Assembly (NCBI GenBank): GCA_026129905.1
Contig: JAHCHE010000016.1
Location: forward strand, 62,001-126,000
Source: Bryobacteraceae bacterium
GTDB taxonomy: Bacteria; Acidobacteriota; Terriglobia; Bryobacterales; Bryobacteraceae
DNA: 64,000 nucleotides
Direction: 5' to 3'
In this document: positions 15,943 to 62,513 of the stretch, one piece after another
Layout of the letters: every line of letters begins with the position of its first letter
Numbering within the stretch: the first letter of the stretch is position 1
The notes under the pieces: generated by a model
Seen by the model: only the letters and a program-made list of their open reading frames with translations
Databases searched by the model: none
Told to the model about the DNA's origin: nothing
Program-made: the position numbers and the translations under genes

Positions 15943-16287
15943 TTACGGCGCCGGAGCTGCGGCGGCAGGAGGCACGCTTCGCGTCGGAGGCCGGACCGCG
16001 TCACGCGTCTCCACGTCGAGCAGGATGAAAATCAGGAAAATCCCCAGCATCAGTGCGCCCGTTACGAAGATGATCGCGTTGATCCGCTTGTCGTAGAGCA
16101 GGTGCATGAAAAACAGCGCTACCAGGGTAGCCTTCACCGACGCGATCGTCAGCGCCACCACCACGTTGATCGCCGGCGAGCCGAAGTGGATGCCCGAAAC
16201 CGCCACCGTGATCACCGTCAGCGCCATCAGCGCGGCCAGCACCAGCGAGTAAGTCTTTCGGGCGTGTGAGTAACTGTGCGCTTCCAT
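15943..16287 (-). CDS. coxD: Cytochrome c oxidase subunit IV, prokaryotic type
   Basis: A 114-residue membrane protein, last gene of the respiratory operon. Three hydrophobic segments are seen: YSLVLAALMALTVITVAVSG, INVVVALTIASVKATLVALF and NAIIFVTGALMLGIFLIFIL. The 'SVKATLVALFFMHLLYDKR' stretch between segments 2 and 3 is the signature of the COX4-like/CtaF family, a small non-catalytic subunit that helps assembly or stability of the oxidase. It begins 9 bases after the end of subunit III. The C-terminal tail is Pro/Ala-rich. Confidence 0.87.
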   Translation of the reverse strand: MEAHSYSHARKTYSLVLAALMALTVITVAVSGIHFGSPAINVVVALTIASVKATLVALFFMHLLYDKRINAIIFVTGALMLGIFLIFILLDVETRDAVRPPTRSVPPAAAAPAP

Positions 16288-16296
16288 GGTCGGCTC

Positions 16297-16958
16297 CTAC
16301 TGGATGAGATACAACAGCGGGAATAAGTAGATCCAGATCAGGTCGACCAGGTGCCAGTACAGTCCCACCAGGTCGACCGGCGCGTAATAGCGGTTCGAGA
16401 AATCGCCCCGGATCGCCCGGCGCAATACCCAGCCGATGGCGCCCATTCCGGCCAGAACGTGGATGCCGTGGAGTCCCGTCATCATGAAATAGAAGCTGAA
16501 GAACATGAACTCGCCCGGGACGGACTCGCCCTGGAAGGAGTAGTATTTCCCCGGCAGGAGGCCATCGTGGAACTTGTGGGAGTATTCGAAGTACTTCACC
16601 ACCAGGAACACGCCGGCGAAGACGAGCGTGAGAACCAGGAACACGATCAGCTGTTTGCGCTTGTTCGCGGCCGCCGCGGCGACGGCCATCACCATGGTGA
16701 AGCTGCTCGACAGCAGGACGATGGTGTTCAGCCCGCCCATGATCCGGTCGAGGTGGTGGTGCGCCGAGGCGAAGGCTTCCGGGTGGCGCGTCTGCATGAT
16801 GCCGAAGGCGACGAACAGACCGCCGAACAGCAGGACCTCGGTCACCAGAAAGAGCCACATGCCGATCTTGCCGGCCTCCACCTGCTGTTCCGGCTCGGCG
16901 AAGTGGTGCTGAAGAAAGGGCTCGTGCGCGCGCCGGCCCGGCTGCGCAGCGGTCTCGC

Positions 16959-16962
<4 letters not shown>
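16297..16962 (-). CDS. coxC: Cytochrome c oxidase subunit III
   Basis: A 221-residue integral membrane protein with five predicted hydrophobic segments, matching the short prokaryotic form of subunit III. Family markers include [20 protein letters not shown] near residue 33, [40 protein letters not shown] and [20 protein letters not shown] at the end. It stabilises subunit I and the proton uptake path in the inner membrane. Its ATG overlaps the stop codon of subunit I by four bases, implying coupled translation. No frameshift or missing segment is seen. Confidence 0.93.
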
Positions 16963-18593
<1,631 letters not shown>

Positions 18594-52557: not shown

Positions 52558-54048
52558 TTATAGCACCCGCATGAAGGCGACGATGTCGCTCTTTTCCTGG
52601 GCAGTCAACTTGAGGCCGAGCACCAGGTTGAAGAACTCGACGGTATCTTCCAGGGTCAGCAGACGGCCGTCATGGAGATAGGGCGGAGAATCTTTGATGC
52701 CGCGCAGGGGGAACGTCTTGATCGGCCCGTCGGAGGCGGCGACTCTGCCGTTGATCATGTGCGCGGAATAGAACCGCTCCGTCTGCAGGTCGTGCATGTT
52801 GTTGTCGGTGTAGTACGGCGCGACGTGGCACACCCCGCACTTGCCCTTGCCGAAGAAAAGCGTCTGCCCCCGCAGTTCCTCCGGCGTGGCCCGGCTTTCG
52901 TCCAGCGTCCCGAACACGGTGAGTTTCGGAGCGGGGGGGAAGTTGAGCAACTCCTGGAACTCCGCCATATCGTGGACCTGGCTCCCGCGTTCCAGAATAT
53001 TCATGCCCTTCTTCGTGGCGATAACGGGATCGCCATCGAAGTACGCGGCCCGCTGCTCGAACTCGGTGAAGTCTTCCACCGTGCGGAGCGCGCGCTGAGA
53101 GCCGAACAACCGCTGCACGTTGACGCCGCGGAGCGTCGGGATATCGATTCGGTGGCGGAAAGCCTGCGGCCGGATGTCTCCCACCAGGTGCGTGGCCGCG
53201 TTGGTGTGGCCGTTGACATGGCAGTCGAAGCAGGTGACGCCAAGACTCGGCCTTTCGGATCGCCGGTCGGCGGTGCCATTGAACTGCTGTTGCGGGAATG
53301 GGGTCACCAGCAGCCGCAGCCCCTCGATCTGTTTCGGCGTGAGGATGCCGTTGAACAGTTCATAGAAGTTCTCGCTGGTTACCAGTTTTCCTTGCGATAC
53401 ATCGCCGAGGTCCGTCCGCGTCGTCAGGTACATCGGCGGCGGAAACTCCGGCAGGAAATGGTCGGGCAGGTCCAGGTCGAGATCGAAGCGGGCCAGGTCT
53501 CGCCCGGTCTGTTTCTTCACTTCATCGATGTGAAATTGCGGGAAGACCATCCCGCCTTCCGGATGATTCGGATGCGGAAGCGGCAGGAAACCGGGAGGGA
53601 ACAGTTTCTTTGTTCGGATCTCGTCGGGGGTCATGGCGCCCAACTGTTCCCACGTAACCCCCTGCGGAAGCTTCACCCGCACCCCGCCTTGCACCGCCTT
53701 GCCCTTGGACATGGCCACGCCCGAAGCGGGTCTGTCGCTCATGTCGTAGCGCTGCTCGAGCAAGTCCATTTGCCGCTTCATCACGCCGGCCTTGGCCGCG
53801 CTCATCTTTTGCATCAGCGGGCCGAAATCGGGTTCCGAAACGGGAGCGTAGCTTGTCTCGCCGCGCAGCTCGATGCCGGCGGCGCGCGCCTCGCGGGCGA
53901 TCCTTTCGGCCGGCGAGAGACTCTGGGTTGGCGTTTCCGGCGAGGCGCCGGCGCGGCCCGGCTGCTGGGCCCCAATGCGTTGCAGCGCCGCCATGCCTCC
54001 GAGGCACAATACCGCGACGGGTATGGCAACGGAATATCGCTTCGTCAT
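52558..54048 (-). CDS. Diheme cytochrome c peroxidase-like (MauG family) exported protein
   Basis: A 496-residue exported protein from ATG 54048 with GGAGG nine bases before it; leader MTKRYSVAIPVAVLCLGGMA. Two heme sites are present: TCFDCHVNGHTN near residue 280 and KCGVCHVAPYYTDN near residue 415, followed by FPLRGIKDSPPYLHDGRLLT, the axial/loop region seen in diheme peroxidases, and EDTVEFFNLVLGLKLTAQEK. Around residue 130 it has an extra ~200-residue N-terminal part not found in short CcpA enzymes. It probably reduces peroxide or oxidises a protein target in the periplasm. The Fur/PerR-like gene 35 bases upstream on the same strand fits peroxide control. Confidence 0.85.
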   Translation of the reverse strand: MTKRYSVAIPVAVLCLGGMAALQRIGAQQPGRAGASPETPTQSLSPAERIAREARAAGIELRGETSYAPVSEPDFGPLMQKMSAAKAGVMKRQMDLLEQRYDMSDRPASGVAMSKGKAVQGGVRVKLPQGVTWEQLGAMTPDEIRTKKLFPPGFLPLPHPNHPEGGMVFPQFHIDEVKKQTGRDLARFDLDLDLPDHFLPEFPPPMYLTTRTDLGDVSQGKLVTSENFYELFNGILTPKQIEGLRLLVTPFPQQQFNGTADRRSERPSLGVTCFDCHVNGHTNAATHLVGDIRPQAFRHRIDIPTLRGVNVQRLFGSQRALRTVEDFTEFEQRAAYFDGDPVIATKKGMNILERGSQVHDMAEFQELLNFPPAPKLTVFGTLDESRATPEELRGQTLFFGKGKCGVCHVAPYYTDNNMHDLQTERFYSAHMINGRVAASDGPIKTFPLRGIKDSPPYLHDGRLLTLEDTVEFFNLVLGLKLTAQEKSDIVAFMRVL

Positions 54049-54083: not shown

Positions 54084-54578
54084 CTATGCCTCTCCTCCGG
54101 CGGCGGCTTTGCCCGGCTTCGGGCTTTTCCGCCGCACAGATCCCCTCTTGATGCACTCCGGGCAAATTCCCCGGAATTGAATTGAGTAATCTTCGATTCG
54201 AAAGCCGGAACTTGGGTTCGGCAATGGCAGCCCGTCGAGCGAGGGATCGTCCAGATCGATCATCGCCTCGCATTGCAGGCAGACCAGGTGGTGATGGCGG
54301 CGCATTCGCGTTTCGTAGCGGGCCGCGGAGCCGGGGTGGCAAACCCGGCGCGCAACGCCGACCCGGACCAGCGTCTCGAGCACGCGGTACACGGTCGTAC
54401 GTGAAATCTCCGGGAGTCTGCGGCGCACGGCCTCAAAAACGTCGTCGGCCGTCGGATGATCGGACCGGCCCGCCAGCTCCTCCAGCACGGAGCGCCGCTG
54501 TACGGTCAACGAGAGCGCGTGGCTGCGGCAGATCTCGGCCTGCCGCTGGAAGTCCGTCTCCGTGGGACGCGCCCGCAT
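54084..54578 (-). CDS. Fur/PerR family metal-dependent regulator
   Basis: A 164-residue regulator. The winged helix reads LTVQRRSVLEELAGRSDHPT, then ADDVFEAVRRRLPEISRTTV and YRVLETLVRVGVARRV. The metal sites are RMRRHHHLVCLQCEAMIDLD and GICPECIKRG, giving the two CxxC pairs of the structural zinc site. Asp/His residues resemble PerR more than Fur, but the two cannot be separated safely by eye. It lies directly upstream of the diheme peroxidase-like gene and is probably co-transcribed with it, with control at its own promoter. Confidence 0.9.
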   Translation of the reverse strand: MRARPTETDFQRQAEICRSHALSLTVQRRSVLEELAGRSDHPTADDVFEAVRRRLPEISRTTVYRVLETLVRVGVARRVCHPGSAARYETRMRRHHHLVCLQCEAMIDLDDPSLDGLPLPNPSSGFRIEDYSIQFRGICPECIKRGSVRRKSPKPGKAAAGGEA

Positions 54579-54586
54579 TTTGCGAC

Positions 54587-54614
54587 AGTATTACGAATGG
54601 AATTAATTGTCAAG
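54587..54614 (-). promoter_or_regulatory. Probable promoter of the Fur/PerR-peroxidase operon
   Basis: On the minus strand TTGACA (plus 54609-54614) is followed by the A+T-rich ATTAATTCCATTCGTAAT and TACTGT close to the expected -10 position, 10-30 bases before the ATG at 54578. The stretch has ATTA and TAAT at its two ends and could be a Fur/PerR box, but inner symmetry is poor. Confidence 0.45.
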
Positions 54615-54865
54615 CAGGATTCTCCCCGGGCTCTCCGGTCCCCGGGCGCACGGCCGCTGCAGGTCCGAGGTCTCTCCTCTGGTAGGCCTTCATTTCAAAC
54701 AGCTTACCTTTCGGCCGTTCCGACGGTCCTGGCATCCTACGCTACAATAGAAAACCTGAGGGCATTGATTCCTTTCCCGGCGCCGCCGTCAAAGGCAGCG
54801 CAAGAATGAAGGTTCGAACCCAATCCAATCCAAAAATCTAACAGTGCCCCGGACGGAGAGGTACA

Positions 54866-55399
54866 GTGGGACGTTTATCCCTGGCAATTCGTAGCTTTTT
54901 CGCATTGTTGTTCAAGGGCGCTCTGCCCGGCGACGTCGTGACGAAGCTCAATCTCGACCGGAAAGCCGCGCCGCCGGCGGCCGCCCCGCCCAAGCCGGCG
55001 GTCGAGCCCGGCCACGGCGCGCTGCAAATGCTGGCCATCCTGCAACGGGACTCCCGGCTGGTCGACTTCCTGATGGAGGATATCTCCTCCTACTCGGACG
55101 ACCAGATCGGCGCCGCCGTCCGTGGATTGCATGAGCAATGCCGCGAGGCCCTCCACCGGTACGTTCGCCTGGCCCCGGTGATCGACGGCGTCGAGGGCAG
55201 TTTCGTACGGCTAAGCGGTCCGTCGGCTGTTTTCGACCCGGCGCGCGTCAAGCTTCTCGGCAACGTCCCGGCGCAGGGGCTTCCCGAGGGCGGCCTGCTG
55301 CGCCACAAAGGCTGGCGCGCCGACAAGGTGGACCTGCCTCCCCTGGACGCCAAACGCGACCTGACCATCCTGGCGCCCGCCGAAGTGGAAGTCGAGTAA
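54866..55399 (+). CDS. DUF2760 protein, first gene of an Hsp70 operon
   Basis: A 177-residue protein from GTG 54866, with GGAGAGG five bases before it; a TACAAT about 120 bases upstream may be the -10 box. After a hydrophobic start (LSLAIRSFFALLFKGALPGD) and a Pro/Ala linker comes the DUF2760 core: GALQMLAILQRDSRLVDFLM, EDISSYSDDQIGAAVRGLHE, QCREALHRYVRLAPVIDGVE and the end LLRHKGWRADKVDLPPLDAK. The function is unknown; the gene is nearly always next to DnaK-like genes, as here (7 bases to the next start), so it is a probable cofactor of those ATPases. Confidence 0.88.
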   Translation: MGRLSLAIRSFFALLFKGALPGDVVTKLNLDRKAAPPAAAPPKPAVEPGHGALQMLAILQRDSRLVDFLMEDISSYSDDQIGAAVRGLHEQCREALHRYVRLAPVIDGVEGSFVRLSGPSAVFDPARVKLLGNVPAQGLPEGGLLRHKGWRADKVDLPPLDAKRDLTILAPAEVEVE

Positions 55400-55406
55400 C
55401 CGCCGC

Positions 55407-57239
55407 ATGAGCGCCAAACTCCGCTACGTCGTCGGCATCGATCTCGGCACCACCAACTGCGGCCTGGCCTTCGCGCAAGCCGAAGGGCTCGATCCGCGCG
55501 AGCTGCCGCCGGTCCTACAGTTCGAGATCCCTCAACTCGTAAACCCCGGCGAGGTTCGCGACGAGACGCTGCTGCCCTCGTCGCTGTACCTGCAGGGCCC
55601 CGCCGACTTCCCCGAGGGCTCGCTCGCCCTGCCCTGGGACGCGAATCCGCCGTTTGTGGTCGGACACCTGGCGAAGACCCGCGGTGCGGAGGCGCCCCGC
55701 CGGCTGGTGGCATCCGCCAAGTCCTGGCTATGCCACTCGGGCGTGGACCGGACCTCGGCGATTCTGCCCACGGCGCCGCCGGAAGGAACGCCCCGGCTCT
55801 CCCCGGTGGAAGCGTCTCGACATTACCTGGAGCACCTGCGGAACGCCTGGACCTCCAGCCAGCCGGACGCGCCGTTTGACGAGCAACAGCTTCTTGTCAC
55901 GGTTCCCGCCTCCTTCGACGCCGTCGCCCGTGAACTCACCGCGCGTGCCGCCGCGGAAGCCGGGCTCAAGAACGTGGTTCTCCTTGAAGAGCCGCAGGCC
56001 GCCTTCTACGCGTGGATCGAGCGCCATCCCGACTGGCGCGAGCGCGTCCACGTGGGCGACCTGATTCTCGTCGTCGACATCGGCGGCGGCACCACCGACT
56101 TCAGCCTCATCGCCGTCACCGAGCGCGACGGCGAACTCCAACTGGAGCGCGTCGCCGTCGGCGAACATATCCTGCTGGGCGGCGACAATATGGACCTCGC
56201 GCTGGCCCGCTTCATCGAGCAGGAACTGGCCGAGAAAGGAAAGAAGCTCGACCAATTCCAGCTCCATGCCCTCTGGCAGAACTGCCGCGTCGCCAAGGAG
56301 AAGCTCCTGGAGGAAGGCGTCAAGGGCGACGAACACCCGGTGACGATTCTCGGCAAAGGAACCGGCGTCGTCGGTGGAACCATCAAGGCGAAACTGCGCC
56401 GCGCCGACATGGAGCGCATCCTGCTCGACGGCTTCTTCCCGCAAGTCTCCAGCGAAGAGATGCCGATGCGGCAGCGCCGCGTCGCGCTTCAGGAGGTCGG
56501 ACTTCCCTATGCCGCCGACGCCGCCGTCACGCGCCACATGGCGCGCTTTCTCCGCCAGCAGGCCGCCGCATCCGAGCACGGCGTTCTCCGCCGGGGGACG
56601 AGCGGCCTCGTGGCGCCGACCCACGTCCTGTTCAACGGAGGCGTTCTGCGCGCGGGGCTGGTGCGGGAACGGCTGCTCGCGACGCTGAATTCCTGGCTCG
56701 CGGCCGAAGGTTTCGAGTCGATCGCCGCGCTGGAAGGCGAGGACCTGATGCACGCCGTCTCGCGCGGTGCGGCATACTACGGCCTGGCGCGCCAGGGCCG
56801 CGGCGTCCGCATCCGCGGCGGCATCCCGCGCACCTACTACGTGGGGATCGAAACCGCCATGCCGGCCGTACCTGGCATGCCGGCGCCTCTGAAAGCGCTC
56901 ACCGTCGCGCAGTTTGGGATGGAGGAAGGCACGCAATCGGCCATCGCGCAGCAGGAGTTCGGACTGCTGGTCGGCGAGCCGGCCGAGTTCCGCTTCTTCA
57001 GTTCCGCGCTGCGCAAGGACGACCCGCCCGGTTCGCTGCTCGAAGAGGTTTCCGGCGAACTCGAGGAACTCGCGCCGATGGAGGTGACCTTGCCCGCCGA
57101 CGGCGACGCGGGCCACCTGATCACGGTCACCCTGGAGACGGTGATCACCGAGACCGGCCAGTTACAGCTCTGGTGCGTCGCCCGAGACGGCCGGCGCTGG
57201 AAGCTCGAGTTCAACGTCCGGGAACGCGTCGCGTCATGA
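55407..57239 (+). CDS. Hsp70 family protein (first of two)
   Basis: A 610-residue DnaK-like ATPase. Phosphate loop 1 is VVGIDLGTTNCGLAFAQ, the second is LVVDIGGGTTDFSLIAV, the connect region LLVTVPASFDAVARELTARA and the adenosine region THVLFNGGVLRAGLVRERLL. It has a long insertion compared with DnaK and a short C-terminal substrate part (residues ~490-610: RRWKLEFNVRERVAS at the end), without the helical lid. It is the first of two coupled Hsp70 genes; the stop overlaps the next start (ATGA). These YegD-like proteins probably act as dedicated chaperones or conformational switches; the client is not known. Confidence 0.92.
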   Translation: MSAKLRYVVGIDLGTTNCGLAFAQAEGLDPRELPPVLQFEIPQLVNPGEVRDETLLPSSLYLQGPADFPEGSLALPWDANPPFVVGHLAKTRGAEAPRRLVASAKSWLCHSGVDRTSAILPTAPPEGTPRLSPVEASRHYLEHLRNAWTSSQPDAPFDEQQLLVTVPASFDAVARELTARAAAEAGLKNVVLLEEPQAAFYAWIERHPDWRERVHVGDLILVVDIGGGTTDFSLIAVTERDGELQLERVAVGEHILLGGDNMDLALARFIEQELAEKGKKLDQFQLHALWQNCRVAKEKLLEEGVKGDEHPVTILGKGTGVVGGTIKAKLRRADMERILLDGFFPQVSSEEMPMRQRRVALQEVGLPYAADAAVTRHMARFLRQQAAASEHGVLRRGTSGLVAPTHVLFNGGVLRAGLVRERLLATLNSWLAAEGFESIAALEGEDLMHAVSRGAAYYGLARQGRGVRIRGGIPRTYYVGIETAMPAVPGMPAPLKALTVAQFGMEEGTQSAIAQQEFGLLVGEPAEFRFFSSALRKDDPPGSLLEEVSGELEELAPMEVTLPADGDAGHLITVTLETVITETGQLQLWCVARDGRRWKLEFNVRERVAS

Positions 57240-59911
57240 CCGTCGGCATCGACCTCGGCACCACCAATTCCGCCCTCGCGTGGGTCAACCCTGAGGAGGC
57301 GGAAGAGGCCGAGTTTCCCCCGATACGGCTGCTCGACATTCCGCAGCACGTGGAACAAGGCGTCGTCGAGCCGCGCCGCGTTCTGCCGTCGTTCCTGTTC
57401 CTCGGCGACGAACGCTACGTGGGCGTCTACGCGCGGGAGCAGGGCGCTCTGGTTCCGACGCGGGTGGTCAGTTCCGCCAAGTCCTGGCTGTCGAATCCCG
57501 ACGTGGACCGCACGGCCAGGATCCTGCCGTGGGATGCGCGCGACTCGGGCCGGACGGTCTCTCCCGTGGAGGCGTCGGCGGAGTTTCTCACTTACATTCG
57601 GCAGGCCTGGGACAAGCAGCAAGCCGCGCCGCTGGCCGAGCAGAACGTCGTGATCACCGTGCCGGCCTCCTTCGATGAGGAGGCCCGCGAACTGACGGTC
57701 GCGGCGGCGGAGCAGGCGGGAATTGGCCGGTTCACGCTGTTGGAGGAGCCCTCGGCCGCCTTCTATGCATGGATCGCGGCGCATCCCGTCGAATCTCAGA
57801 AGGCGCTGTTTGACGGCCAGCTTGTACTGGTCTGCGACGTCGGCGGCGGCACCACCGATTTCACGCTGATCCGCGTCTCGCGCCGGGGCGACGACGTCGA
57901 GTTCACCCGCACCGCGGTGGGCAAACACCTGCTGCTCGGCGGCGACAACCTCGATTTGACCCTGGCCTGGCTGGTGGAATCGAAGCTGAAGGCGCAGCTT
58001 TCGGTTCGCCAGCGCAGCGCCTTGCGCCGGCAATGCGCGGCGGCAAAGGAGCGGCTCCTCTCGGACCCCGACTGCCGCAGCGTCGAAATCCGCGTGCTCG
58101 GAAGCGGGACGTCGCTGGTGGGAGGCACGCTTAAAACCGAGGTGCTGCGGGAAGAGGCCCTCGAACTCACCTACGGCGGATTCCTGCCCGCATGCAGCCT
58201 TGCCGACCGGCCGAAGGAAGAAAAGCGCAGCCTCTTCCGCGAACTCGGCCTGCCCTATGTCTCCGATCCCGCCATCACGCGTCACTTAGCGGCATTCCTC
58301 GCCGGAACGGGCGCGGAAGGCGCCGGCGGTCCCGACGCGATCCTCTTCAATGGCGGCTTCTTCAATCCGGAGGTCTGCCGCGAGCGCGTCGCCGACATCG
58401 TCGGTAACTGGTATGGCCGCCGGCCCGCGGTGCTCGAAAGCCGCGACCTCGACCTGGCGGTCGCCGTCGGTGCGGCGTACTACTCCTACGTTCGAACCAC
58501 CGGCGCCGGCGTTCTGGTGCGAGGCGGGCTGCCCCGGACGTACTACATCGGAATCGGCAGCGACGATGACGGGCAGGCCACCATCCCCGCCGTCTGCCTG
58601 GTACCCCGCGGAACCGAGAATGGGACCACGCTGGAACTCGACCGCGACGACCTGCGGCTGCTGGCAAACCGGCCGGTCTCGTTCCGCCTGTACAGCTCCC
58701 TCACGCGGCTGGGCGACGAAGGCGGGCGGTTGGTGGAGTTCCCGGCCGGCGAAATCGGCGCCGGCATCCACGTGCATGCGCCCCTTCACGCGGTGCTGCG
58801 CTTCGGCAAGCGCACCGGCGAACAGCTTGTCCCGGTGAAGCTGTCGGTGAAGCTGACCGAAGTCGGAACGCTGGAAATCTGGTGTGAGTCCAAGGTCAGC
58901 GACCATCGCTGGAGGCTTCAATTCGAGCTTCGTAAACAGGCGGCCGCGGAGCCGCAGGCGCGAAAGCGGCCCGCCACCGTCATCAGCGAGGCCGCCCGCG
59001 ACGAGGCGTCGTCGCTCCTGCGAAATTCGTTCCGCCGCGACGCCGAACCGCCCGTCGCCCCCGAGGACCTGCCCGGCCGGCTGGAGCAGACCCTGGGACT
59101 TGGCCGCAATTCCTGGCCGCTGGACGCGATCCGGCGCTTCGCGGATATACTGCTCGAGCAGGCCCCCGGCCGGACGCGCAATGCCGCCTGGGAAGCGCGG
59201 TGGCTGAACCTATGTGGTTTCTGTCTGCGGCCGGGCTTCGGCTATCCCGGCGACGACTTCCGGATCGAGCAGACCCGCCGCATTCACGCAGCCGGCCTGC
59301 AGTTTCCCGGCCGTGCGCAGAACGAAGTGGAATGGTGGATCTTCTGGGGCCGCGTGGCCGGCGGCCTGAACCGCAATCAGCAGGGAGACCTCTACAACCG
59401 GGTCTCTTCCGTTCTCCTGCCGCGAGGCAGCAAACGAGTTCGCGTTAATCCCAGCCTTTTGCGTGAGATGTGGCGCATGGCCGCGGCGCTGGAATTGCTG
59501 CCTGCGCATACCAAAACAGAGTTAGGGGAGGCGTTGATGGCCAGGGTCCGCTCGAAGGACTACGGCGACAGCGAACTCTGGTGCCTTTCCAGAATTGGCG
59601 CCCGGCAATTATTCTACGGACCGGCCAACCAGGTGCTCACGTCCGCGACCGCGTCCTCCTGGGTCAAGACCCTGTTGCCGCTGCCGAAATCCGCCGAGGC
59701 GCTCGCCGCCATTGCCCGCCGCACCGGCGACCCGACGCGAGATCTTCCGGCCGCTACCATCGCCCAGGTCCGGCAGAAGCTCGAGCAGGGACCCGACGCC
59801 GCACGGCTTACGGCGATCCTCGAAGGCGAAGCGCCTCGCGACGAGCAGGACCTCAGCCGCGTCTTCGGCGAACAACTGCCGTCCGGGCTCCGCGTGGCAA
59901 GCGACGGATAG
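57236..59911 (+). CDS. Hsp70 family protein with C-terminal DUF3731
   Basis: An 891-residue protein. Residues ~1-580 repeat the Hsp70 plan of its neighbour: VGIDLGTTNSALAWV, VITVPASFDEEARELTVAAA, LVCDVGGGTTDFTLIRV and DAILFNGGFFNPEVCRERVA. Residues ~640-891 form DUF3731, a helical domain (GRNSWPLDAIRRFADILLEQ, CGFCLRPGFGYPGDDF, ELLPAHTKTELGEALMARVR) found only in such Hsp70s. The upstream parallel Hsp70 is clearly a paralogue from duplication. With DUF2760 the three genes form a tightly packed operon; together they may make a hetero-Hsp70 machine. No J-protein or GrpE gene is adjacent. Confidence 0.92.
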   Translation: MTVGIDLGTTNSALAWVNPEEAEEAEFPPIRLLDIPQHVEQGVVEPRRVLPSFLFLGDERYVGVYAREQGALVPTRVVSSAKSWLSNPDVDRTARILPWDARDSGRTVSPVEASAEFLTYIRQAWDKQQAAPLAEQNVVITVPASFDEEARELTVAAAEQAGIGRFTLLEEPSAAFYAWIAAHPVESQKALFDGQLVLVCDVGGGTTDFTLIRVSRRGDDVEFTRTAVGKHLLLGGDNLDLTLAWLVESKLKAQLSVRQRSALRRQCAAAKERLLSDPDCRSVEIRVLGSGTSLVGGTLKTEVLREEALELTYGGFLPACSLADRPKEEKRSLFRELGLPYVSDPAITRHLAAFLAGTGAEGAGGPDAILFNGGFFNPEVCRERVADIVGNWYGRRPAVLESRDLDLAVAVGAAYYSYVRTTGAGVLVRGGLPRTYYIGIGSDDDGQATIPAVCLVPRGTENGTTLELDRDDLRLLANRPVSFRLYSSLTRLGDEGGRLVEFPAGEIGAGIHVHAPLHAVLRFGKRTGEQLVPVKLSVKLTEVGTLEIWCESKVSDHRWRLQFELRKQAAAEPQARKRPATVISEAARDEASSLLRNSFRRDAEPPVAPEDLPGRLEQTLGLGRNSWPLDAIRRFADILLEQAPGRTRNAAWEARWLNLCGFCLRPGFGYPGDDFRIEQTRRIHAAGLQFPGRAQNEVEWWIFWGRVAGGLNRNQQGDLYNRVSSVLLPRGSKRVRVNPSLLREMWRMAAALELLPAHTKTELGEALMARVRSKDYGDSELWCLSRIGARQLFYGPANQVLTSATASSWVKTLLPLPKSAEALAAIARRTGDPTRDLPAATIAQVRQKLEQGPDAARLTAILEGEAPRDEQDLSRVFGEQLPSGLRVASDG

Positions 59912-60080
59912 CCCCTCTTCAGCTCAACCGTAAACCGGTGTGATTCCGACATACTGCGCGGATTCCGCACGTGCTCCAGAATGCTTCTTTGCCTCTGGAA
60001 TCAAGCATTTAATGCCCATTTTCACATGGCGCCCTCCGTGCTGTTTCTTCAGATGGCCGCGTATCTTTGGGAGAACATCG

Positions 60081-62513
60081 ATGGCTTCAAAACAACAGTT
60101 TGACGAATGGATTGGGCGAGGACGCAAGCGTCTGCGGGGCCTCTGGGAGAACGTTTCGCGATCTCCCTGGCAGACGGTCGCGATCTTTCTGACCCTGACG
60201 TTCGTCCTCGTTTCCGCCGTGACGATCGGCTTTGCCTGGCACGCCTACTGGACGTATTCCCGCATCGTGGATTCGAAACTCGACGAAGGCGTGCTGCTGC
60301 CGGCAGCCCAGGTGTACTCCGCGCCCGACCTCATTGAGCGCGGATACAAGATTACGCCCGAGGAATTGATCGCGCGACTCCAGGCCGCCGGGTACTCCGG
60401 CCAGCCCTCCCCTTCCGGGGCGTACTATCAGGTCGTCAAAAACTCTGTCCGCGTGTATCCCGGCGCCGGCTCTTATGTCGGCGGCGAGCCCGTAGCGATC
60501 GATTTCGCGAAAGACAGCGTTCGCCGCATCGTTCCGTTGAACGGCAAGAAAGCCATCGACTTCTACCGCCTGGAGCCTCGCCTCGTGACCAGCATCCAGG
60601 ACCGCGAGCGGGCCAAACGGCGGCTGGTGGAGTACAACCGGATCCCGGCGCATCTTCGCAACGCCATTCTTGCCATCGAGGACCACCGGTTCTTCCAGCA
60701 CGGCGGCATAGACATGGTCCGTACGGCGAAAGCCGCTTATGAAGGCGTCGCGGCGTGGGAGAAACCCCGCGGCACTTCGACGCTGACGCAGCAGCTCGCT
60801 CGCGGGTTCTTTCTGAGCCCGGACCGCACGTACAGGCGAAAGTTCGCAGAACTTCTGATCTCGCTCGAATTGGAGGAGCGGCTCACAAAAGAGCAGATCT
60901 TCGAGTACTACGTCAACCACGTTTCCCTCGGACAGCAGGCCAGCTTCGCCATCTGCGGAATGGGCGAGGCGGCCGACCGGTTCTTCGGAAAGGATCTGAA
61001 GGATATCACCCTGGACGAGGCGGCGATGCTGGCCGGCATGGTTCAGCGGCCCAGCGCTCTTAACCCTTACCGCTATCCGGAGCGCGCGGCGCAACGACGC
61101 AACGCCGTGCTGGACGCGATGCTGCGCCGCGGCTACATTACGCCGCAGCAGCGCGCGGAAGCCGCGCAGGCGCCCATCAAAGTTGTGCCGCCTTCGGTGG
61201 ACACAACCGACGCGCCGTACTTTGTGGATCTGGTGGACCGCGAACTGAAGGCCAAGTTCAGCGAAAAGGACATGCTCACGCGTGGTTTCAAGGTTTACTC
61301 TACCCTTGACCCCAACCTTCAGCAGATCGCCGTCGAGGCCTCGAACAAGGGCATGGAAGCCGTCGAAGCGATGTTGCAAAAGCAGCGCCGGTGGAAGGGC
61401 AAGGAAGTCCCGTCGCCGCAGGTGGCGCTGGTGGCGCTCGACCCGACGACGGGCGCGGTGAAGGCGCTTGTGGGGGGCCGCAGTTACGCCCGCAGCCAGC
61501 TTAACCGTGCGCTAGCGGAGCGGCAGCCCGGCTCTGCCTTTAAGCCGTTCGTTTATGCCGCGGCGCTCGATCCGAACATTGGCGGCCTGACGCCCGCAAG
61601 CCTGGTGGATGACGAAGAGACGGTCTTCGAGTTCGGCGACGAGCAATACGCCCCGACGAACTTCGGCAAGGAGACCCATGGCGCGGTAACGCTGCGCCGC
61701 GCGCTGCGGAAGTCCCTTAACATCGCAACCGTCAAAGTGTCCGAGCAGGTCGGATATCGGAACGTGGCCGCGTTGGCGCGCCGAGCCGGGATGGGCTCGC
61801 GAGTCCGCGCCACCCCTTCGCTGGCGCTCGGAACCTACGAAGTTTCGCCGCTCGAAATGGCGGGGGCGTACACGGTATTCGCGAATGGCGGCGTCAAGGT
61901 GAAGCCGTACCTGATTAGCGCCGTCCAGGATCCGGCCGGCGACGTCGCGATGGAGCATCAGCCGCAAACAACGCCGATCCTCGATCCCCGCGTTGCCTTC
62001 CTGGTGAACAACATGCTCGAGGACGTGGTCAACCGTGGTACCGCCTACGAGGCGAGGGCGCGCGGCTTCACGGCCCCGGCGGCGGGAAAAACCGGCACCG
62101 ACGACGACGGCTGGTTTGTCGGCTACACCAGCAACCTGCTGTGCGTCGTCTGGGTCGGCTTTGACGATAACACCGATCTCGGCCTCGAAGGCGCGAAGTC
62201 GGCGCTGCCTATCTGGACCGATTTCATGAAGCGTGCGGTCCGGCTGCCCGCCTACAGGAATCCCGCTCCGTTCCCCATGGTGGAGGGAATCGGCACGGCC
62301 CGGATCGATCCGGAAACCGGCCAACTCGCCACGCCGGACTGCCCCGAGAGCGCGAACGAGGTCTTCATCCAGGGCTCCGAACCCACGGAGAAGTGCGAGT
62401 TACACCGCCATGGCTTCTTCGATTTCGTGGCCCGAATTTGGCGGCGCTCCGACAGTTCAAAACAGTCCGACGGCGGCGGCGCGGTCGACGCGAAGCCCTC
62501 GGGAACTCCCTAG
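60081..62513 (+). CDS. Class A penicillin-binding protein, PBP1b type
   Basis: An 810-residue bifunctional murein synthase from ATG 60081 (GGGAGAA precedes it). One membrane helix (TVAIFLTLTFVLVSAVTIGF), a UB2H-like domain (residues ~75-150), then glycosyltransferase 51 with catalytic Glu200 in AILAIEDHRFFQHGG and GTSTLTQQLARGFFLSPDRT, and the transpeptidase with Ser485 in RQPGSAFKPFVYAAA, SLN at 545-547 and KTGT at 670-673. All catalytic residues are present. It polymerises and cross-links peptidoglycan in the periplasm. A longer upstream frame is open but lacks coding character. The gene stands alone. Confidence 0.94.
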   Translation: MASKQQFDEWIGRGRKRLRGLWENVSRSPWQTVAIFLTLTFVLVSAVTIGFAWHAYWTYSRIVDSKLDEGVLLPAAQVYSAPDLIERGYKITPEELIARLQAAGYSGQPSPSGAYYQVVKNSVRVYPGAGSYVGGEPVAIDFAKDSVRRIVPLNGKKAIDFYRLEPRLVTSIQDRERAKRRLVEYNRIPAHLRNAILAIEDHRFFQHGGIDMVRTAKAAYEGVAAWEKPRGTSTLTQQLARGFFLSPDRTYRRKFAELLISLELEERLTKEQIFEYYVNHVSLGQQASFAICGMGEAADRFFGKDLKDITLDEAAMLAGMVQRPSALNPYRYPERAAQRRNAVLDAMLRRGYITPQQRAEAAQAPIKVVPPSVDTTDAPYFVDLVDRELKAKFSEKDMLTRGFKVYSTLDPNLQQIAVEASNKGMEAVEAMLQKQRRWKGKEVPSPQVALVALDPTTGAVKALVGGRSYARSQLNRALAERQPGSAFKPFVYAAALDPNIGGLTPASLVDDEETVFEFGDEQYAPTNFGKETHGAVTLRRALRKSLNIATVKVSEQVGYRNVAALARRAGMGSRVRATPSLALGTYEVSPLEMAGAYTVFANGGVKVKPYLISAVQDPAGDVAMEHQPQTTPILDPRVAFLVNNMLEDVVNRGTAYEARARGFTAPAAGKTGTDDDGWFVGYTSNLLCVVWVGFDDNTDLGLEGAKSALPIWTDFMKRAVRLPAYRNPAPFPMVEGIGTARIDPETGQLATPDCPESANEVFIQGSEPTEKCELHRHGFFDFVARIWRRSDSSKQSDGGGAVDAKPSGTP

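Follow-up and report, generated by a model that had tools for sequence, protein, structure and literature searches.

In PMC8476630, J-domain proteins are treated throughout as a key part of Hsp70 systems, and the account of exchange factors in PMC4753570 gives GrpE as the sole type known in bacteria and HspBP1/Sil1, with an HspBP1 domain of 260 residues, as one of three eukaryotic exchange-factor families. HscC is a specialised Hsp70 with the membrane-linked partners DjlB and DjlC encoded nearby (PMC8215388), Sse has a marginal ATPase activity and binds through its nucleotide-binding domain (NBD) and the alpha part of its substrate-binding domain, SBDalpha (PMC8476630), and the lidless Ssz1, which does not hydrolyse ATP according to the passages concerned in PMC8476630 and PMC7083937, has the LP-motif MFSLPTL of Zuo1 as its pseudo-substrate (PMC7083937). 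Here we analyse a stretch of 64,000 nucleotides (the window) from a Bryobacteraceae bacterium of the phylum Acidobacteriota (assembly GCA_026129905.1, contig JAHCHE010000016.1, positions 62,001 to 126,000), in which a DUF2760 protein (D) is followed by two diverged Hsp70-type ATPases (H1 and H2). This three-gene cassette is real, co-inherited and patchily distributed, and we propose that it may form a self-sufficient Hsp70 machine that has two ATPases and its own regulators, a reading for and against which we see the chances as evenly balanced.

A co-inherited cassette of D, H1 and H2

D (177 aa; 54866..55399, + strand) has a GTG start preceded by GGAGAGG and a TAA stop, and its DUF2760 domain (55016..55390, +; Pfam residues 51-175) matches PF10816 with E 1e-38, the only Pfam match of D at E up to 10. 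Seven bases (55400-55406) separate it from H1 (610 aa; 55407..57239, +), an Hsp70-type ATPase without a C-terminal lid that runs from an ATG start to a TGA stop. H2 (891 aa; 57236..59911, +), an Hsp70-type ATPase with a C-terminal DUF3731, has its ATG start in the stop codon of H1, with the start/stop overlap ATGA at 57236..57239 (+). The two Hsp70 paralogues with a 4-base overlap, preceded at 7 bases by DUF2760, that the first-pass annotation had reported thus prove exact to the base. In Pfam, H1 matches HSP70 (E 4e-18, 65.4 bits) and has no DUF3731, and H2 matches both HSP70 (E 6e-22, 78.0 bits) and PF12531 (E 6e-74); the HSP70 cut-off is 20.6 bits, and the HSP70 matches of both proteins end within the NBD. 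No paper in the literature searched mentions DUF2760 or DUF3731, whether by name or by Pfam accession.

In the window, H1 and H2 share 42% identity with each other, and over aligned columns they are 24% (H1) and 21% (H2) identical to Escherichia coli DnaK and 21-23% to E. coli HscC. Both miss the equivalog cut-offs for DnaK (NCBIfam TIGR02350; 53.7 and 77.6 bits versus 822.55) and HscA (NCBIfam TIGR01991; 79.6 and 94.3 bits versus 708.55). By sequence, the pair is a member of the Hsp70 superfamily unlike the DnaK and HscA equivalogs. An NBD tree of 17 of 69 H1, 17 of 66 H2 and four other Hsp70s separates H1 and H2 together from DnaK, HscA and HscC (support 100/100) and recovers a single H1 clade (99/97), with Acidobacteriota and Proteobacteria present in both H1 and H2. 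H2 does not form one clade: the best tree places H1 within H2 at forks of 96/62, 86/58 and 94/84, which lie below the star level of the tool, and H2 is united in 0 of 200 bootstrap trees. The outgroup branch is long and the root correspondingly unsure; taken at face value, the topology suggests that H1 derived from an H2-like protein and then lost DUF3731, which would fit D and H2 as the core of the cassette.

Within a sample of 297 genomes from the same phylum as the window, D exceeds the family cut-off in eight and DUF3731 in ten. All eight D genomes also have DUF3731, which upholds the view of DUF2760 and two diverged Hsp70 paralogues as an inherited unit. The two DUF3731 genomes without D over the cut-off are G258, which is fragmented, and G261, whose match reaches 27 bits; the latter and G119, with DUF2760 below the cut-off, were set aside as doubtful. 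Proteins of the H1/H2 type at E <= 1e-40 occur in nine of the 297 genomes, namely the eight D genomes and G258. The earlier statement that the cassette is conserved in many bacteria stands in part: D is also found on 11 plasmid records from alpha-, beta- and gammaproteobacteria, but only in the few same-phylum genomes given above.

Gene order was followed in the best 80 of 539 relatives in a genome collection, all found via D and all Acidobacteriota, and the counts describe that group. The arrangement D-H1-H2 is present at 47 loci (10 at contig ends), D-H2 at 14, D-H1 with the contig continuing at nine and D-H1 at a contig end at seven, with two loci of D alone and one fragmented locus (L088); D adjoins H1 or H2 in 78 of the 80. 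Genome-wide searches covered 26 genomes in which D lacks a neighbour: 13 of the 14 D-H2 cases (L050 omitted), the nine D-H1 cases, the two with D alone and two from the phylum sample, with the seven D-H1 loci at contig ends outside this set. D is single-copy in all 26, DUF3731 is present in 25, and H1 was found in 20 and as a fragment in one further genome, being missing from G289, G299, G300, G309 and G319. Since G187, of the same genus as G289, has H1 on another contig and the G289 genome is 100% complete, H1 has probably been lost in G289. From the single D per genome, the near-universal DUF3731 and the absence of H1 from five genomes, D and H2 are the core of the cassette and H1 is an accessory that is usually retained. 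The one genome with H1 but no DUF3731 match is the draft G320 (that of locus L080), whose H1 on contig 214 has one internal TAG; the cassette may be decaying there, or the assembly may have a gap.

Ten of the 11 plasmid records with D have two H-type places, and two of the 11 are conjugative Bradyrhizobium plasmids. On the Bradyrhizobium plasmid pCB82_1 (L113), a groES-groL pair (16219-18263) lies about 1 kb downstream of D-H1-H2. The Thiodictyon plasmid pTs485 (L109, 1-24375) encodes D-H1 without H2 among annotated anti-phage genes (DUF499, DUF3780, DUF1156 and a phospholipase-D-like gene), together with a TIR protein. Plasmid carriage, conjugative in two cases, the Thiodictyon gene context and the patchy distribution would all suit a mobile stress or defence accessory, that is, a plasmid-spread cassette acting in phage defence or mobile-element biology. 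However, PADLOC gave only weak matches to one candidate model, which span 83-91 residues and would follow from a shared Hsp70 fold. No relative was found in viral contigs, and the few neighbours that recur in Acidobacteriota are unlike defence genes. We consider such a role very improbable.

Motor residues and co-chaperone contacts

Residues were counted in 69 H1 and 66 H2 sequences, near-copies included, aligned with E. coli DnaK, HscA and HscC; H1 open reading frames (ORFs) of <=540 aa and H2 ORFs of <=840 aa were left out, and a second DnaK-like row, a misread frame, entered no count. Ten motor positions whose roles belong to general knowledge of DnaK, D8, T11, K70, P143, E171, D194, T199, D201, G341 and G342 (DnaK numbering), are invariant in 69/69 H1 and 66/66 H2. 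PMC8215388 gives R167, Q378, E206, P419, L391 (through its backbone) and the linker residue D393 among the residues by which DnaK meets J-domains. R167 is absent from all 69 H1, with T, V or I in 67 and A or M in two, and from 60 of the 66 H2 (T in 59, A in one). Q378 is replaced by Y or F and D393 by G, A or S in all 135 rows. N170, a residue beside R167 that we take to be a further J-domain contact, is E in all of them. E206 is kept as E in 1/69 H1 and 3/66 H2. E. coli HscA also lacks E206, as well as D477, and it is therefore R167, N170, Q378 and D393, retained in both HscA and HscC of E. coli, that carry the argument. Loss of the main J-domain contacts in H1 and H2 is supported by these replacements.

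The interdomain linker differs as well. The alignment places it at 56802..56840 (+) in H1, where GVRIRGGIPRTYY replaces the VLLLD of DnaK, and at 58508..58546 (+) in H2 (GVLVRGGLPRTYY), and across the family it resembles GVRIRGG or GVLVRGG. Among the linkers in which the pattern could be parsed (62/69 H1 and 57/66 H2), an acidic residue occurs in none of H1 and one of H2. In DnaK, the cleft salt bridges R56-E264 and K55-E267 slow ADP release (PMC8215388). Neither pair is retained as such in H1 or H2; H1 has no acidic residue at position 264 in the 62 of 69 rows covered and none at position 267 in any row, and 60 of the 66 H2 have the charge-swapped pair E/D56-R264, which could restore the bridge with reversed charges. 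The sequences make independence of H1 and H2 from GrpE likely, though it is less well supported than the loss of J-domain contacts.

Several features weigh against independence from J-domains and GrpE. Of the contacts, P419 is still present in 61/69 H1 and 66/66 H2, R167 persists in 6/66 H2, and the change at L391 is mild, to I or V; E206 and D477 are, as noted, also missing from HscA. The GrpE loop (DnaK 290-295) is largely filled in H1 and H2, unlike in HscA, with one column deleted and most residues changed. The window sits on contig 8 of an 8.57-Mb genome with seven Hsp70-type matches in total, and this genome also has five J-domain matches and one GrpE match, which could in principle serve H1 and H2 in trans as ordinary specialised Hsp70s in the manner of HscA or HscC. 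The retained P419 and the occasional R167 accord with this, as do two gene contexts. One is a distant Acidobacteriota relative, in which an 846-residue ORF with a J-domain stretch (L019:10253-12793, +; tblastn E 6.5e-10) is divergent to D at a distance of about 180 bp; in the other (L081), a grpE-dnaJ pair lies 1.7 kb downstream of H1, with dnaJ itself 2.3 kb away. These are, however, the only two of 94 loci with a J-domain nearby in tblastn searches with the J-domains of E. coli DnaJ and HscB, and the four positions that HscA and HscC both keep are replaced in all rows (N170, Q378, D393) or in 129 of 135 (R167). On this evidence, service in trans appears quite unlikely. The J-domain and GrpE matches lie on contigs 6, 21, 23, 24 and 25 and none on contig 8, in line with the initial observation that neither a J-protein nor an exchange factor is near the cassette.

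C-terminal regions of H1 and H2, and DUF2760

The 130-145 residues that follow the NBD form a domain common to H1 and H2 (profile comparison E 6.7e-38), and in H1 little comes after it: beyond the column of DnaK 502, the 69 H1 have only 13-27 residues, against 137 in DnaK, and H1 therefore has no space for a helical lid. Against the chaperone reading, the shared domain shows no significant similarity to the DnaK substrate-binding domain (SBD; hhalign E 0.37 for H1 and 0.65 for H2, with a DnaK-side profile of only four sequences), and among the 60 matches listed, the hidden Markov model alignments to solved Hsp70s reach no further than the end of the NBD. Substrate binding by H1 and H2 is accordingly assumed from position, and the domain may be either an SBDbeta that has diverged strongly or a different kind of domain. 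In the latter case, H1 and H2 would be ATPase switches and not chaperones. They might then be ATPases of the Hsp70/actin fold whose C-domain does not bind substrate and which work with DUF2760 as a membrane-linked switch or scaffold, as the missing SBD similarity and a secondary Pfam match to MreB_Mbl would allow. HSP70 far outscores MreB in both proteins, however, and a linker-like stretch is retained after the NBD together with the proline switch (P143 in all rows, R151 in 69/69 H1 and 64/66 H2), which suggests that the NBD is coupled to the C-domain. A switch or scaffold is in our judgement possible, if on balance unlikely.

H2 holds DUF3731 (58988..59836, +; PF12531 residues 650-886) at the position of the DnaK lid. 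The predicted structure of this region is all-helical (predicted local distance difference test, pLDDT, 88.3; predicted template modelling score, pTM, 0.85), and Foldseek relates it to ARM/HEAT proteins with a probability of 1.00 and E 6.4e-3. Structural alignment in VIA gave Z scores of 12.0-14.2 at root-mean-square deviations of 4-8 over residues 14-303 among the 50 rows listed, values that come close to noise when helical repeats are compared and may mean only a common arrangement. Because of this, we claim a fold class for DUF3731 and not homology. No HspBP1 or Sil1 chain is among the same 50 rows, and a PDB profile search with the DUF3731 sequence found no convincing solved relative (best E 1.1) and no match to HspBP1/Sil1. 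DUF3731 is thus predicted to be an ARM/HEAT-type solenoid of the generic fold class of the HspBP1/Sil1 exchange factors, and since this is the fold class of a known exchange-factor family, it is a reasonable hypothesis from the model that DUF3731 replaces an exchange factor.

For D, a PDB profile search gave no match and the predicted fold no convincing one among PDB structures (best Foldseek E 1.5; best VIA Z 5.1). These searches found neither a J-domain nor a GrpE fold for DUF2760, apart from a GrpE chain at VIA Z 2.8 that was taken as noise. The suggestion that DUF2760 and DUF3731 replace a J-protein and an exchange factor consequently holds only in part. Key J-domain contacts are lost, GrpE features are altered and DUF3731 is placed in an exchange-factor fold class; for DUF2760, no convincing J-domain likeness was found in sequence or fold, so that its role as a stand-in resembling a J-protein is unsupported.

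The N-terminus of D is predicted to form a hydrophobic helix (54872..54916, +; model residues 2-16), and the blocks covering model residues 1-20 have mean pLDDT values of 93 and 95. The 19-residue hydropathy of this end is at least 1.0 in 83/93 D, compared with 302/782 neighbour proteins. A threshold of 1.6 or more is reached by 10/93 D and 123/782 neighbour proteins, so that in most rows the helix is weakly hydrophobic, which speaks against a membrane-bound D. Only in the two Bradyrhizobium D is the N-terminus transmembrane-like, with a 19-residue mean of 2.9 and, by eye, a second such stretch after it. We infer a membrane association of D, weakly outside Bradyrhizobium.

Both D and H2 end in conserved motifs. 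The C-terminal tail of D contains ILAPAEVEVE (55367..55396, +; model pLDDT about 65-77), and the A, E and E of this APAEVEV-like end are invariant in 48/48 rows; the tail pattern is met by 90 of 94 D, and the four misses each differ at one position. The tail of H2 contains FGEQLPSGL (59864..59890, +) and is predicted to be disordered, with pLDDT <50 from model residue 314. The motif has the general form FGExLPxGL, and 46 rows show no change at the L, P, G and L of LPxGL. The pattern fits 64/66 H2; of the two misses, one falls at a contig end and the second retains LPxGL. The conservation of these motifs in flexible tails suggests docking peptides. The H2 motif is retained in H1-less genomes (rows L023 and L049), an obstacle to a tail dedicated to H1, and H1 is therefore not its sole possible receptor.

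Neighbourhood, proposed mechanism and known systems

A Fur-family regulator with CxxC pairs (54084-54578, -) is divergent to D, and beside it lies a gene for a protein with two CxxCH-type haem motifs, by eye di-haem peroxidase-like (52558-54048, -). A bifunctional penicillin-binding protein with transglycosylase and transpeptidase domains (60093-62513, +; UB2H below the cut-off) is encoded directly downstream of H2. In tblastn searches, homologues of the fur and haem-protein genes occur at 0/93 other D loci and one of the penicillin-binding protein near D at 1/93 (L093). The link to envelope stress implied by the first-pass annotation consequently finds no footing in the neighbourhood.

Regulatory motifs were sought with the generally known consensus patterns for CIRCE, PerR and Fur. 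Neither a CIRCE element nor a PerR box is present in the window at up to three mismatches, no sigma-70-like promoter was found in 54500-60200, and one Fur-like site with four mismatches lies at 54598. Heat-shock control of the cassette, for which neither a CIRCE element nor a sigma-70-like promoter was seen, was set aside, as was Fur/PerR control through the divergent fur gene, given the missing PerR box and the single imperfect Fur-like site.

Other neighbours recur in part of the collection. A gene of the AIR-synthase family (ThiL-like by reading) is found at 17 of the 60 loci whose downstream flank exceeds 1.2 kb, and a tetratricopeptide repeat (TPR) protein with, by eye, a helix-turn-helix (HTH) at 13 of the 72 loci whose upstream flank does; both represent lineage synteny, and no client is inferred from them. 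The TPR protein, represented by L064:8512-9426 and its relatives with an N-terminal HTH, lies upstream of D at a median gap of 75 bp and on the same strand in 14/15 cluster loci, and is a candidate regulator. The D loci examined contain no conserved neighbour pointing to a client, which counts against the proposed machine.

In the proposed two-ATPase machine, the N-terminal helix of D would hold it at the membrane, where it would gather H1 and H2, perhaps by its conserved acidic tail. The DUF3731 solenoid could influence the ATPase cycle either in cis or in H1; its most plausible role would be that of an exchange or release factor built into H2. The LPxGL tail of H2 might serve as an internal docking peptide. 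The lidless H1 would act as a fast, low-affinity binding partner for H2, and its absence from some genomes that retain D and H2 would mark it as an accessory. In its boldest form, which we put forward as speculative and unlikely as a whole, the cassette would be a bacterial Hsp70 system free of J-domain and GrpE, with two mutually regulating ATPases, a DUF2760 trigger subunit that recruits to the membrane, an ARM/HEAT exchange module where the lid would be and LPxGL as a pseudo-substrate tail, and hence a convergent counterpart of the eukaryotic Ssz1-Ssb pair plus HspBP1/Sil1. An operon in which both Hsp70s retain the ATPase residues without the main J-domain contacts, and which supplies a solenoid at the lid position, would uncouple the motor of Hsp70 from the regulators it classically depends on, a question of motor versus regulator that is testable with three purified proteins.

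Compared with known systems, H1 and H2 share NBD homology and every catalytic residue checked with DnaK, HscA and HscC. They are, however, only 21-28% identical to these over aligned columns, have R167, N170, Q378 and D393 replaced in most or all rows, and form a paralogue pair with DUF2760 that has neither a lid nor detectable SBD similarity. The HscC system resembles the cassette in joining a specialised Hsp70 to nearby-encoded partners, membrane-linked there and putatively so here, but DjlB and DjlC are J-domain proteins, whereas D has no detected J-domain. Hsp110/Sse1 likewise places a diverged Hsp70 beside another Hsp70, and differs in that H1 is without a lid. HspBP1/Sil1 and, by prediction, DUF3731 are all-helical, of ARM/HEAT type and of similar size, but DUF3731 is fused to the Hsp70 itself and has no sequence match to them. 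The fungal ribosome-associated complex Ssz1/Zuo1/Ssb also combines two Hsp70s, one of them lidless, with one partner, and H1, judged by position, matches the Ssz1 type in lacking a lid. Both machines contain an LP-containing peptide, the LP-motif of Zuo1 and the LPxGL of H2; these likenesses are analogies only. Here, in contrast, there is no J-domain, LPxGL stands at the C-terminus of H2 and not in the partner, and H1 retains all catalytic residues checked, which points away from the non-hydrolysing state of Ssz1 and towards an H1 that may still work as an ATPase.

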